From Candidatus Fermentithermobacillaceae bacterium (GTDB lineage: Bacteria > Bacillota > Sulfobacillia > Fermentithermobacillales > Fermentithermobacillaceae), in NCBI GenBank assembly GCA_012840345.1, contig DULO01000130.1, forward strand, positions 19,383-83,382: DNA of 64,000 bases, given 5' to 3'. The notes beneath the pieces were generated by a model. That model was given only the letters and a program-made list of their open reading frames with translations, had not been told where the DNA came from and did no database searches. Below, one piece after another: positions 35,692-40,796 of this stretch. Position numbers and translations under genes: made by a program. Numbering within the stretch: the first letter of the stretch is position 1; the number at the start of each line of letters is the position of its first letter.

Positions 35692-36336
35692 ATGCCGCAG
35701 CTGGAAGCCATCTTACTGAGGATACCGGGCTTTCTTTTGGCCATCAGCATCCACGAGTATGCCCACGCCAGAATAGCGTTCGAACTGGGTGACGATACGG
35801 CCGAAAGGGAAGGCCGCATGACTCTGGAGCCCTGGGCCCACTTTGACCTCGTGGGCGCAATTATGCTCCTGTTTTTCCGGTTCGGTTGGGCAAGGCCCGT
35901 CCCCGTTAACCCCTATAGGTTTAGAAACCCCAGAAAAGGCATGGCATTGGTGTCGCTCGCCGGTCCCGCCGCCAACATGATAGCGGCCTTTGTGCTGCAG
36001 GTGTTGACGATACTCTTGTTCACCCGCATCCGGTTTACGGGCAGCCCTTGGATCCACTTACCCAGGGTGTTGGAACAAGCGGCATGGATAAACGCCGGCC
36101 TGGGCTTTTTCAACTTGATTCCGATCCCGCCTCTGGATGGGTCCAAGATAGTGTCCGTGTTATTGCCTTATTCCCTGCAGGACCTCTGGGACCAGTTTGA
36201 GCAGTACGGCTTTCTAGTGCTTATCGTGCTCCTGTACAGCGGGCTGTCGTCCAAGGTTCTCTGGCCCTTGGTCACAGGGTTCATGCAGTGGGTCCAGAAC
36301 GTAGGCATCTATCTATCACTTCTGGTTTTCCGCTAA
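35692..36336 (+). CDS. site-2 protease family (M50) membrane metalloprotease
   Basis: M50 proteases cut within or near membranes. The 214-residue protein has the zinc motif HEYAH (ISIHEYAHARI) near residue 20 and the second metal motif NLIPIPPLDGSKI, with about five or six membrane segments. It lacks PDZ and CBS domains, so it is the short YwhC type found next to scpA-scpB, rather than RseP or SpoIVFB. Substrate unknown. Confidence 0.9.
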   Translation: MPQLEAILLRIPGFLLAISIHEYAHARIAFELGDDTAEREGRMTLEPWAHFDLVGAIMLLFFRFGWARPVPVNPYRFRNPRKGMALVSLAGPAANMIAAFVLQVLTILLFTRIRFTGSPWIHLPRVLEQAAWINAGLGFFNLIPIPPLDGSKIVSVLLPYSLQDLWDQFEQYGFLVLIVLLYSGLSSKVLWPLVTGFMQWVQNVGIYLSLLVFR

Positions 36337-36342
36337 GGCGCC

Positions 36343-37077
36343 ATGAAAGGAATCCTAAAACTCGCCCCGTTATTTCGCGTGTTTCGTGGACAAGTTGAGG
36401 CGTCCGAGATTCCCCTTGAGACGTCGGTGCGCACTTTGGCCAGGGCTTCCGACTTGGTGATCACGAAAATAAGGTGGTTGTTGCCGAGCCAAGCTCAAGA
36501 AGCCCCGGACGCGGAAGATGAAGAGATGGGCGACGTGGCGGCCGAAGTCGGAGCCACGTACCTGCCTGTAATGGAGCCGTGGGAGCTCAGCAAGGCCACC
36601 GATTACATGAAGATGCTGCTGGGGGATTCGGCGCGGAAATACCCGCGTGGAGCTACGTCTCTCATGAGCGCTCCGACCACGGTGATCACGTCTATAGACC
36701 CTCGTGAGCTTCGAGACGCCATGAGATTGGTAGTCGCCAAATCCGAACCGGTCAGGCGGACCTTGGTCATCCCCAAGTGGAACTTCGTCGCACACCTCCG
36801 GCGCTTCTGGAGCGAGGTCAAGCGTTTGGCAGGGAAGGGAGCGATTTTGAGGTTTTCCCGTTTCTTGGGGCGCGACAAGAAAGAGGCCATCCAGAACTTC
36901 CTGGCCTTTTTGGAGCTTATCAAGAGGCGGAGGTTGTTCGCCAGGCAGACCGGTCCTTTCGGGGAGATCGTCTTCGGCACGGACCGGGAGAGCGTTTTGT
37001 CCATAGACCACACGGACTACGCGGCGGACCCTCCGGACTCAACGGATTACTCAGAGGAAGAGGGGCGTGAAGAGTGA
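36343..37077 (+). CDS. scpA: segregation and condensation protein A, N-terminally shortened
   Basis: ScpA is the kleisin that bridges the SMC heads with ScpB in chromosome segregation. The C-terminal winged helix is clear (EAIQNFLAFLELIKRRRLFARQTGPFGEIVF). The N-terminal part is short: the usual F-GPLDLLLHLI segment is missing, and similarity begins near LARASDLVITKIRWLLPS. The same frame is closed by the M50 stop only 4 codons upstream, so no longer start exists. It is thus a 244-residue divergent form, or the gene is truncated. ScpB overlaps its end as GTGA. Confidence 0.75.
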   Translation: MKGILKLAPLFRVFRGQVEASEIPLETSVRTLARASDLVITKIRWLLPSQAQEAPDAEDEEMGDVAAEVGATYLPVMEPWELSKATDYMKMLLGDSARKYPRGATSLMSAPTTVITSIDPRELRDAMRLVVAKSEPVRRTLVIPKWNFVAHLRRFWSEVKRLAGKGAILRFSRFLGRDKKEAIQNFLAFLELIKRRRLFARQTGPFGEIVFGTDRESVLSIDHTDYAADPPDSTDYSEEEGREE

Positions 37078-37634
37078 ACCTTACGGCCCTGATTGAAGCC
37101 ATTTTGTTCGCCTCGGACGAGCCGGTGCCGGTAAAGAGGCTCGCGACCGGGCTCCGGGTAACTGAGCAGGACGTGGAAAGAGCCGCGTCCGAGCTTCAGG
37201 AGCTGTATAAGGACAGAGGCATCTTTTTGGAACGTGTGGCCGGCGGCTTGATGATTTCCACCCGTCCTGAGTGCGCCCACGTCATCGAGGAAGTGCTTTC
37301 TTGGAAGGTCCCGGTTTCCTTATCCAGGGGCGCCCTGGAAACTCTCGCCGTGGTGGCTTACCGCCAGCCCGTGACGCGCCAAGACATTGAGAGCGCCCGG
37401 GGAGTAAACCCGGAGGCCAGCATAGAAACGCTGTTGGAGAAAGGCCTCATTCGGGAGGCCGGAAGGAAGAAGAGTCTGGGCCGCCCGAAGCTTTACGTCA
37501 CTACCGACGAGTTTTTGAAGAAAGCCTCATTGAACTCCATAGAGGACTTGCCGCCATTGTCCGGTCCCCCCGATTCTGACGAAGATGAAAGGCCCAGGCA
37601 GTTGCCGCTCGGGACAGACGCCGGAGAGCGGTAG
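37074..37634 (+). CDS. scpB: segregation and condensation protein B
   Basis: ScpB dimers bind ScpA in the SMC complex. The 186-residue protein has two winged-helix domains; the signature LSRGALETLAVVAYRQPVTRQDIESARGVN is intact, with GRPKLYVTTDEFL near the end. GTG 37074 overlaps scpA. Confidence 0.95.
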   Translation: MNLTALIEAILFASDEPVPVKRLATGLRVTEQDVERAASELQELYKDRGIFLERVAGGLMISTRPECAHVIEEVLSWKVPVSLSRGALETLAVVAYRQPVTRQDIESARGVNPEASIETLLEKGLIREAGRKKSLGRPKLYVTTDEFLKKASLNSIEDLPPLSGPPDSDEDERPRQLPLGTDAGER

Positions 37635-37740: not shown

Positions 37741-38418
37741 ATGCGGTATCTGGTGGTCATTGCCGCTCTGGCTGCGGTATCTTTATTTGTCTTGGCCCTG
37801 TTTCTGCCTGTCTGGATCCGGCTCAGGGCCAGGGTAGGACCGGATCGTTTCGGGGTTCGAATATGGGTTCGCTTGCCTCTCATCCCATGGTATATTCCCT
37901 TGCCTGAACTGACCCCCGACAAGCTGCACAGATTGCGCCAGCCCAAGACGCGACGGGCTCCTAAGGATATGGAGCCGGACTTGAGCGCGGAGCCAACACC
38001 TGACCGCGAACGCGCGAGAACGCCCGACGCGGTGCCGCTGACGAAGAAGATTCGAAGAGGGATGGCGGCGTTTCGGAAAGCATTGCCTCTGGTCAGGGAA
38101 ATCCTTAGGGAAGTGGCCGGAATTGTTCGTGTGAGGAAACTTAGCGTTCGGGGACACCTTGGAGTGGGCGACGCATTCCAGACCGCTCTCCTCCTGGGCG
38201 GGTTGAACTCGGCGGCCTTTCTCCTCCTGAGGACCATGCGCCGGCAAGGGTTTCGCTTTGACAAAAAACCGGTAATTTGGTTTGCCCCCAGGTATGACAC
38301 TGTGACTTTTGACGCCAAGATTGACGTCGAAACGGGAGCAAGCGTCGTCGGTTTCCTAAAACTGGGATGGCATCTTAGGAAAGCGACCCAACCTTTGTTG
38401 ATGTCACGCACCGCGTGA
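37741..38418 (+). CDS. DUF2953 family protein (YtfI-like)
   Basis: The 225-residue protein has an N-terminal membrane segment (residues 4-22) and the DUF2953 region near the C-terminus (VRGHLGVGDAFQTALLLGGLNS; FDAKIDVETGASVVGFLKLGW). DUF2953 genes usually sit next to ytfJ, as here. The middle 60 residues are charged and probably disordered. ATG follows AAGGTG at 8 nt. A spore-related role is inferred from the neighbour; biochemical function is unknown. Confidence 0.82.
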   Translation: MRYLVVIAALAAVSLFVLALFLPVWIRLRARVGPDRFGVRIWVRLPLIPWYIPLPELTPDKLHRLRQPKTRRAPKDMEPDLSAEPTPDRERARTPDAVPLTKKIRRGMAAFRKALPLVREILREVAGIVRVRKLSVRGHLGVGDAFQTALLLGGLNSAAFLLLRTMRRQGFRFDKKPVIWFAPRYDTVTFDAKIDVETGASVVGFLKLGWHLRKATQPLLMSRTA

Positions 38419-38464
38419 CATCGCCTCAACACAGCGTGGCAATACTACCCCTAGGAAGTTTGCG

Positions 38465-38929
38465 ATGGGGGGTCAAGACATGGGTTGGCATCCGATTGAG
38501 ACTCTCATGAAGACTACCATGGAAAGCCTTAAAGCCATGGTCGATGTGAACACGGTTGTGGGAGAACCGGTTGAGACCAAAGAAGGGACTGTGATTATCC
38601 CTGTTTCCAAAGTGTCCTTCGGGTTTATCACGGGCGGCGGCGATGACAGCATGGGCGGAGAAACGTCCGCCGAAGAAGGCCAGCGTGAAAACGAGTACGA
38701 TGTACAAGGAGGAAGTGGCGGTCAACACCTGCCGTTCACAGGGGGGACAGGCGCGGGCGTGACGGTGCGGCCGGTTGGGTTCCTAGTGGTCGGCACCAAG
38801 AAGGTAAGGTTTCTGCCGGTAGATTCCCGTGCCATTTACGACCGTCTGCTTGATGAACTCCCCGACCTTCTGGAAAGAACGGCCGATGCTCTCCATACCA
38901 GAGGCCGCCCGCCAGAACCGGGCCTCTAG
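38465..38929 (+). CDS. ytfJ: spore germination/sporulation protein YtfJ (GerW family)
   Basis: YtfJ is a small protein of the spore inner membrane region, linked to germination in some species. The 154-residue product has the typical N-terminus (HPIETLMKTTMESLKAMVDVNTVVGEP) followed by GTVIIPVSKVSFGFITGGG, and VRPVGFLVV near the end. The C-terminal 20 residues are a charged extension. It pairs with the upstream DUF2953 gene. Confidence 0.92.
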   Translation: MGGQDMGWHPIETLMKTTMESLKAMVDVNTVVGEPVETKEGTVIIPVSKVSFGFITGGGDDSMGGETSAEEGQRENEYDVQGGSGGQHLPFTGGTGAGVTVRPVGFLVVGTKKVRFLPVDSRAIYDRLLDELPDLLERTADALHTRGRPPEPGL

Positions 38930-38946
38930 AACCGGGAGGTAGGGAC

Positions 38947-39819
38947 ATGCGGCCGCTGTGGAACGGTACCCTCGCCTTTGGGCTGGTGGTGATCCCGGTC
39001 AGGCTGTACGCCGCGACCGAAAGGAAGTCGCCCAGCTTCAACTTGCTTCACGCGAAATGCGGCACTCCGGTGAAGTACTTAAAGTGGTGTCCTACCTGCG
39101 ACAGGGAAATCGCTCAAGATGAGATAACCCGGGCGTTCGAGTACGCGAAGGGCGAGTACGTTACCATCAGCGACGAAGAAATGGAGGCCATCCCCGGCCC
39201 GGCGGCTCACGTCATAGAGATACTGGACTTCGTGGAATTGTCCCAGGTGGATCCCGTGTACTTCGAAAAGAGCTTCTTTCTGGAACCGAGGGAAGGCGCG
39301 GGTAAGGCTTACGCGCTCCTGCGGAAGGCCATGGAAGAACAGGGCAAAGTCGCCGTCGCCAGAGTAGCGATCCGCGCGAAAGAAACATTGGCGCTTATTC
39401 GCGTCTATAAGGGCCGTTTCATCATGATGGAGACCATGTACTGGGGCAACGAAGTCAGGCAAGGCGAGGAACTAAGCATTCCCGAAGACGTCCACCTGGA
39501 CGAACGCGAGATGTCCATGGCAAAGACGCTCATGGAAACCCTGACGTCTGACTTCGAGCCGGGCAAGTACGAGAACCGCCAGCGTCAGGCCCTTTCCGAT
39601 TTGATCGAGAAGAAAGTCCAGGGTAGGGAGATCGTGCGTGAACCGGAGCGGGCCGGCGCGCAAGTCATAGACCTGATGGAAGCGCTGCGCAGGAGCGTGG
39701 AGAAAGCCAAAGCCGACGAAGGACGGCAAAAAGGCCGGACCGCGGCTGACGGGAAACCCAGGGCCAGAAGAAGGAGAGCTTCAGGCGAGGGCGAGGCGGC
39801 TGCCCCGCCCCCGGCATGA
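38947..39819 (+). CDS. ku: non-homologous end joining protein Ku
   Basis: Ku binds DNA double-strand ends and recruits the ligase. The 290-residue protein begins with the canonical LWNGTLAFGLVVIPVRLYAAT and contains the ring-forming core (GKAYALLRKAMEEQGKVAVARV). Two CxxC-like cysteines (CGTPVKYLKWCPTC) lie near residues 39-55. The last 45 residues form a Lys/Arg-rich tail typical of bacterial Ku. It overlaps the ligase gene as ATGA, so the repair genes form one operon. Confidence 0.95.
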   Translation: MRPLWNGTLAFGLVVIPVRLYAATERKSPSFNLLHAKCGTPVKYLKWCPTCDREIAQDEITRAFEYAKGEYVTISDEEMEAIPGPAAHVIEILDFVELSQVDPVYFEKSFFLEPREGAGKAYALLRKAMEEQGKVAVARVAIRAKETLALIRVYKGRFIMMETMYWGNEVRQGEELSIPEDVHLDEREMSMAKTLMETLTSDFEPGKYENRQRQALSDLIEKKVQGREIVREPERAGAQVIDLMEALRRSVEKAKADEGRQKGRTAADGKPRARRRRASGEGEAAAPPPA

Positions 39820-40796
39820 GCCCGGATCCCGAGCGGGGTCTAGGACCCGACCGGGTTTTCGGAATCCCGCGGCTGTTTCCCATGTTGGCCACTCCGGGCG
39901 GCGAGCCTTTCTCGGACGAGGCTTGGTCGTTTGAGGTCAAGTGGGACGGCTACCGCTCGCTGGCCTATCTCACCCGCGGCCAGTGCTACCTGGATTCCCG
40001 GAACCAAAAGCCCCTGTTGCCCAGGTTCCCGGGGCTAAGCGGTATGTGGCGGGGTCTGAACGCCCAGAGCGCCCTCATCGACGGCGAAATCGTCGCGTTT
40101 CGGGACGGCAGGGTCGATTTCTCCCATCTTAGGACCGAACCCCAAGATGTTGTTTTTGTGGCTTTCGACCTCCTCTACGTAGACGGCAAGCTGCTCTTAG
40201 ACGAGCCCCTATCGGAGCGCCAAGCTCTCTTGGAGGGAGTCTATTCATGGGGCAAGGATGTTTTCAGGTCAGAGACCGTGTCTGGCCAGGGAGAAGCCTT
40301 GTTTGAGTGGGTGCGGGAGCGAGGCTTGGAGGGGATGATGGCCAAGCGGAAAGACAGCTTTTACACCCCGGGAAAGCGGTCAAAAGACTGGATCAAAGTG
40401 AAAAACGTCCAAGAGGGCCGTTTCTGGGTGGTAGGATACATGCCCGGCGCCGGAAGAACGGTCGGTTCTCTGGTCGTCGCCCGGGAAAAAGACGGCCGCT
40501 TAGACATTGTGGGACGAGTGTCGTCGGGACTCAACAGCCGGTATGAGAAGTTTTTTCTGGAGAACCTCACGCCCATCGACGCCGCCGCTGTGGATACCGG
40601 GCATGTGGATGCGGGCTCGGACCTGGTCGCTCCCCGCGTTGAGGCCGTCCGTAAGCCGGTGTTTGGAGACCTCACTAGAGCGGAAATAAAGACAATCCGG
40701 TGGGTGAGGCCCTTTTACGGCGTGGAAGTCCAGTACACGGAAATCACTCCCGACGGACGACTCCGGCATCCTGTGTTTCGGGAGGTGTGTGAATAG
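39816..40796 (+). CDS. ATP-dependent DNA ligase (LigD ligase module)
   Basis: This is the stand-alone ligase component of bacterial end joining. The 326-residue protein has the adenylation lysine in FEVKWDGYRSLAY (KxDG), the nucleotidyltransferase motifs (LIDGEIVAF; EGMMAKRKDSFY), and a C-terminal OB-fold. The polymerase module is encoded by the next gene rather than fused. Start overlaps ku; stop overlaps the next GTG by one base. Confidence 0.93.
   Translation: MSPDPERGLGPDRVFGIPRLFPMLATPGGEPFSDEAWSFEVKWDGYRSLAYLTRGQCYLDSRNQKPLLPRFPGLSGMWRGLNAQSALIDGEIVAFRDGRVDFSHLRTEPQDVVFVAFDLLYVDGKLLLDEPLSERQALLEGVYSWGKDVFRSETVSGQGEALFEWVRERGLEGMMAKRKDSFYTPGKRSKDWIKVKNVQEGRFWVVGYMPGAGRTVGSLVVAREKDGRLDIVGRVSSGLNSRYEKFFLENLTPIDAAAVDTGHVDAGSDLVAPRVEAVRKPVFGDLTRAEIKTIRWVRPFYGVEVQYTEITPDGRLRHPVFREVCE

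Follow-up and report, generated by a model that had tools for sequence, protein, structure and literature searches.

The scpA gene of this Candidatus Fermentithermobacillaceae genome encodes a kleisin that lacks the canonical first helix of its N-terminal domain. Very probably the gene codes for a real, working ScpA that was shortened when the ancestor of Candidatus Fermentithermobacillales lost helix α1; an α2-α3 hairpin would still sit on the SMC neck and the winged helix on the SMC cap, with the ring still forming. Helix α1 is absent from all 15 ScpA genes that were found in the order, which consists of uncultured, heat-loving Bacillota. Because the first helix is gone but α3 is kept, and this across the whole order, the protein appears to be a trimmed and probably working kleisin and not a broken or mis-assembled one. 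No description of an α1-less ScpA was found in the literature searched.

The scpA locus

The window is the whole stretch of 64,000 nucleotides that was analysed, and all coordinates refer to it. In the gene order M50 protease, scpA, scpB, the kleisin gene lies directly between the other two:

35692..36336, forward strand: M50 family protease, whose in-frame stop codon closes the scpA reading frame on its upstream side
36343..37077, forward strand: scpA, SMC-complex kleisin of 244 aa, without canonical helix α1
37074..37634, forward strand: scpB, complete (PF04079, E = 9.8e-51; TIGR00281 over its cut-off), its start overlapping the scpA stop

A sequence-only reading of this DNA had reported that the FxGPLDLLLHLI segment is missing and that the M50 stop closes the frame four codons before scpA. 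The segment is indeed missing, with no GPLDLLL-like sequence in the six frames of 36000-36400, and the M50 stop (TAA, 36334-36336) is indeed in the scpA frame, but only two codons separate it from the ATG. In the window protein, matches to the Pfam SMC_ScpA and NCBIfam ScpA models are confined to the C-terminal winged helix (residues ~159-214). The protein scores 19.5 bits against PF02616, under the curated cut-off of 24.6 bits, while L011, a sister ScpA of the same family, lies above that cut-off with 29.9 bits.

The N-terminal domain

The domains and helices of the window ScpA are as follows (AF2 stands for the AlphaFold2 structure model):

36361..36399, forward strand: product helix 1, residues 7-19, most likely canonical α2 (AF2 pLDDT ~87; profile register; ungapped Patescibacteria match)
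36415..36480, forward strand: product helix 2, residues 25-46, canonical α3, the SMC-neck-binding helix (profile score, hhalign, AF2)
36577..36741, forward strand: middle region, residues 79-133, with helices 79-99 and 120-133, the expected ScpB binder, poorly conserved (AF2, conservation)
36784..36978, forward strand: C-terminal winged helix, residues 148-212, the expected SMC-cap binder (AF2 pLDDT ~95; Foldseek; Pfam)

From FxGP to LLP the canonical N-domain measures 65-66 residues in 44 of 45 sequences; the window ScpA has 44 residues from L5 to P48. The neck-binding helix α3, ending in xLLP, is present. When aligned without gaps it has a BLOSUM profile score of 35.6, against -16.1 +/- 8.4 for column shuffles (0/5000 as high), and hhalign chooses the same register. 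In sister ScpAs the Pfam and NCBIfam alignments start at residue 23-24, corresponding to profile positions 33-34, and run through the winged helix; that of L011 with Pfam pairs residues 23-210 with profile positions 33-228, starting at α3. The earlier view that homology begins only at LARASD (residue 32) and that the SMC-binding segment is missing thus does not hold, as the Pfam and NCBIfam models align from residue 23-24 in relatives and tblastn from residue 5, and the neck-contacting helix is retained according to the profile, AF2 and the Pfam alignments of relatives.

For helix 1, the best of all registers is α2 (p = 0.013 with the register given a priori, 0.27 over all registers), and MAFFT likewise sets it on α2. 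A tblastn search matches residues 5-48 to the α2-α3 portion of an Uhrbacteria (Patescibacteria) ScpA (ISLASVADQF...LLLP), ungapped over 44 residues. AF2 gives two N-domain helices in the window ScpA (7-19 and 25-46, pLDDT ~87) and three in a canonical control modelled in the same manner (12-23, 32-45 and 50-71), where the N-domain pLDDT is only ~60. The last helix has 22 residues in both models. Helices 1 and 2 of the window model are 5 residues apart, compared with 4 between α2 and α3 and 8 between α1 and α2 of the control. Foldseek yielded a convincing match for the winged helix only and none for the N-domain; the top match of the winged helix is 4i99_C (SmcHead bound to ScpA C-WHD, TMt 0.84), and 5h66_C is also matched.

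Since α3 is kept, and registers, alignments and AF2 helix spacing fit an α2-α3 pair, the helix lost from the N-domain is most likely α1. Helix 1 of the product is accordingly the probable α2, an assignment that is weak by sequence alone. The converse, in which α2 was deleted and helix 1 is a degenerate α1 (LAPL.RRLREQVE for GPLDLLLHLI) joined closer to α3, seems rather improbable: it can draw on the APL/GPL likeness at the start of the helix and on some α1 registers that rank next best (offsets 17, 20; end 23 at -1.9 against 1.7 for the best), but the top register overall, tblastn and MAFFT all favour α2, and the AF2 spacing is that of α2-α3 in the control and not of α1-α2.

Distribution in Candidatus Fermentithermobacillales

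Seventeen genomes of the order were searched, covering six genera in two families, Candidatus Fermentithermobacillaceae and its sister family. ScpA was located in 15 of them, all of which also have ScpB; the two genomes without an ScpA match have no ScpB match either. Those relatives that carry a name in public data belong to Candidatus Fermentithermobacillaceae, which has been described from coal-fire vents and has relatives among bacteria of digesters (PMC10215811). N-terminal α1 with FxGPLDLLLxLI is absent from the window ScpA and from all its relatives in the order. Within the family the protein begins M-x-x-L-x-L-A-P-L-x-R-x-L-R-E-x-V-E-x-G-x-I-x-L-E-E-S-V-x-x-L-x-x-A-S-x-L-V-L-x-K-x-R-W-L-L-P, and ScpAs of the sister family carry an unrelated leader ahead of the shared short N-terminus. 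The same M50-scpA-scpB layout and an α1-less ScpA are found in G009, a genome assembled as a single 2.3 Mb contig.

An alternative upstream start was considered and ruled out, as most members of the order have an in-frame stop 1-8 codons upstream of the ScpA start; in L003 the frame is open for 26 codons upstream of scpA, yet no α1-like sequence occurs there. The suggestion that this lineage uses a reduced kleisin is supported, the short N-terminus being common to all 15 ScpAs found in the order and under strong purifying selection, and the winged helix and ScpB are intact as had been stated (AF2, Foldseek, PF04079, TIGR00281).

Other lineages of the class and phylum

Loss of α1 appears to be rare: in a Bacillota sample of 399 genomes, 368 of them over the ScpA cut-off, the ~150 best matches listed all start at profile position 1-2, within α1. 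Other families of the class have PF02616 matches that begin at profile position 28-34; on inspection by eye, most of them (f29-f32, f34 and f37) keep a degenerate three-helix N-domain, so the order does not belong to a single large α1-less group.

In f33 (L158, L159) the ScpA N-domain measures ~48 residues from the start to the end of the last helix. In a tree of ScpA built without the N-domain, the two families of the order group together (96/94); f33 falls elsewhere, grouped with f29-f32 (100/100). The shortening in f33 would thus be independent, and this family may have lost one N-domain helix on its own. ScpAs of f37 (L164-L176) have an N-domain that is full by length and has lost the GPLDLLL signature, PF02616 seeing mostly their C-terminus. 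The opposite pattern is seen in f21 and f22 (L144-L148), where GPL[DEH]LL is kept, the remainder has diverged and Pfam matches mainly the N-terminus.

Conservation and partner proteins

The two-helix domain and the winged helix are the most conserved portions of ScpA. Mean pairwise column identity within the family is 0.75 for helix 1, 0.62 for α3 and 0.61 for the winged helix, against 0.25 for the linker, and ω of the N-domain is 0.02-0.18 in 13 close pairs. The middle region (36490-36780) is without the canonical DPRxELxxxLxEYxxFK signature, though ScpB is intact; given the missing signature, the ScpA-ScpB interface may have changed.

Besides the scpB gene paired with scpA, the genome has a full-length SMC, a frame of 1187 aa with Walker A, signature and Walker B motifs that matches the SMC equivalog model with 863.9 bits (cut-off 567). 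The SMC neck columns (166-225 and 991-1035) have a within-family identity of 0.50-0.67, higher than that of most other coiled-coil columns, and a between-group identity with canonical relatives of ~0.2-0.38. With a neck sequence so unlike that of canonical relatives, the neck interface may be remodelled. Co-evolution specific to the neck was considered and dropped, and we make no such claim, since SMC head columns 121-150 and parts of the hinge differ between the groups as much as the neck does.

Proposed mechanism and alternative explanations

In Smc-ScpAB the N-domain of ScpA, a bundle of α1-α3, attaches to the neck of one SMC, and the second SMC is held at its cap by the winged helix (PMC7055376). 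The related kleisin Nse4 contacts the neck through helix 3 of its N-domain (PMC7297730), and crosslinks favour an arrangement in which kleisin and coiled coil together form a four-helix bundle (PMC13102395). We infer that the short N-domain likewise attaches to the neck and that the ring operates as it does in other bacteria. Following loss of α1 (the FxGPLDLLLHLIxKxEIDIxDI segment) from ScpA in the ancestor of Candidatus Fermentithermobacillales, the α2-α3 hairpin would use α3 to dock on one SMC subunit at its coiled-coil neck; the second subunit would have its head capped by the C-terminal winged helix, and ScpB would bind the ScpA middle region. With the hairpin on the neck, the winged helix on the cap and ScpB on the middle, the asymmetric ring should still form.

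An unlikely, though conceivable, extension is a remodelled neck gate, in which the SMC neck changed in parallel with α1 loss and opening of the kleisin-neck contact (DNA entry or exit, ScpB inhibition of neck binding) is regulated unlike that of other Smc-ScpAB complexes. The loss of one of three helices and the divergence of the SMC neck from the canonical sequence could also mean that the N-domain is off the neck altogether, the kleisin holding cap and ScpB only and its short hairpin having another partner; with the contact helix α3 kept and highly conserved, and the SMC neck columns still conserved within the family, this is distinctly improbable. That a separate small protein supplies α1 in trans is very improbable. 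Whole-genome searching with PF02616 matches one place, the scpA gene at 36343-37077, giving no second ScpA, and a canonical α1 query finds nothing credible in this genome (E = 0.28, against 1.7e-16 in a canonical control genome) and nothing in four further genomes of the order. The sensitivity of this query is limited, as it likewise missed the divergent α1 of an f37 genome, and a very divergent separate α1 could escape it; within that limit, the searches gave no backing to the earlier proposal of a missing part encoded at another place. Sequencing or assembly error, also raised earlier, or a pseudogene, might be suspected from the nearby upstream stop, but is ruled out: the same N-terminus occurs in 15 independent genomes of six genera, the single-contig genome among them, and ω is far under 1.

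Comparison with other kleisins

The preferred reading, a trimmed ScpA, leaves much in common with bacterial ScpA (PF02616; Bacillus subtilis, Patescibacteria): α3, probably α2, a disordered linker, middle helices, the winged helix, an operon shared with ScpB and a genome that also encodes full-length SMC. The differences are the absence of α1 with its FxGPLDLLLHLI and the replacement of the DPRxELxxxLxEYxxFK of the middle region by unrelated sequence. Archaeal ScpA (Thermococcus onnurineus, PMC7055376) is likewise a lineage-specific kleisin reduction that keeps neck and cap binding, as predicted for the window ScpA, but there α1-α3 are kept and the ScpB-binding middle is lost, whereas here α1 is lost and ScpB kept. 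The N-terminal HTH of the kleisins Nse4 and Scc1 contacts the neck by helix 3 (PMC7297730), as predicted for α3 of the window ScpA; it is a three-helix HTH, remote in sequence from the window protein.

The GPLDLLL helix is among the most conserved ScpA segments, its G and P being invariant in 27 diverse canonical sequences, yet it is absent from the whole order, which amounts to a natural deletion experiment. It shows that helix α1 is dispensable in some genetic context, and the role of α1 in N-domain folding or in ScpB control of the neck gate is directly testable. The case also illustrates that standard ScpA models can miss a real kleisin.

Genes downstream of scpAB

The DNA that follows scpAB (37741-40796, and likewise L178) carries in turn a DUF2953 gene and genes for a GerW/YtfJ-like protein, for Ku and for an ATP-dependent DNA ligase, the last two of which we take to be an NHEJ pair. 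G009 has the same downstream gene order.
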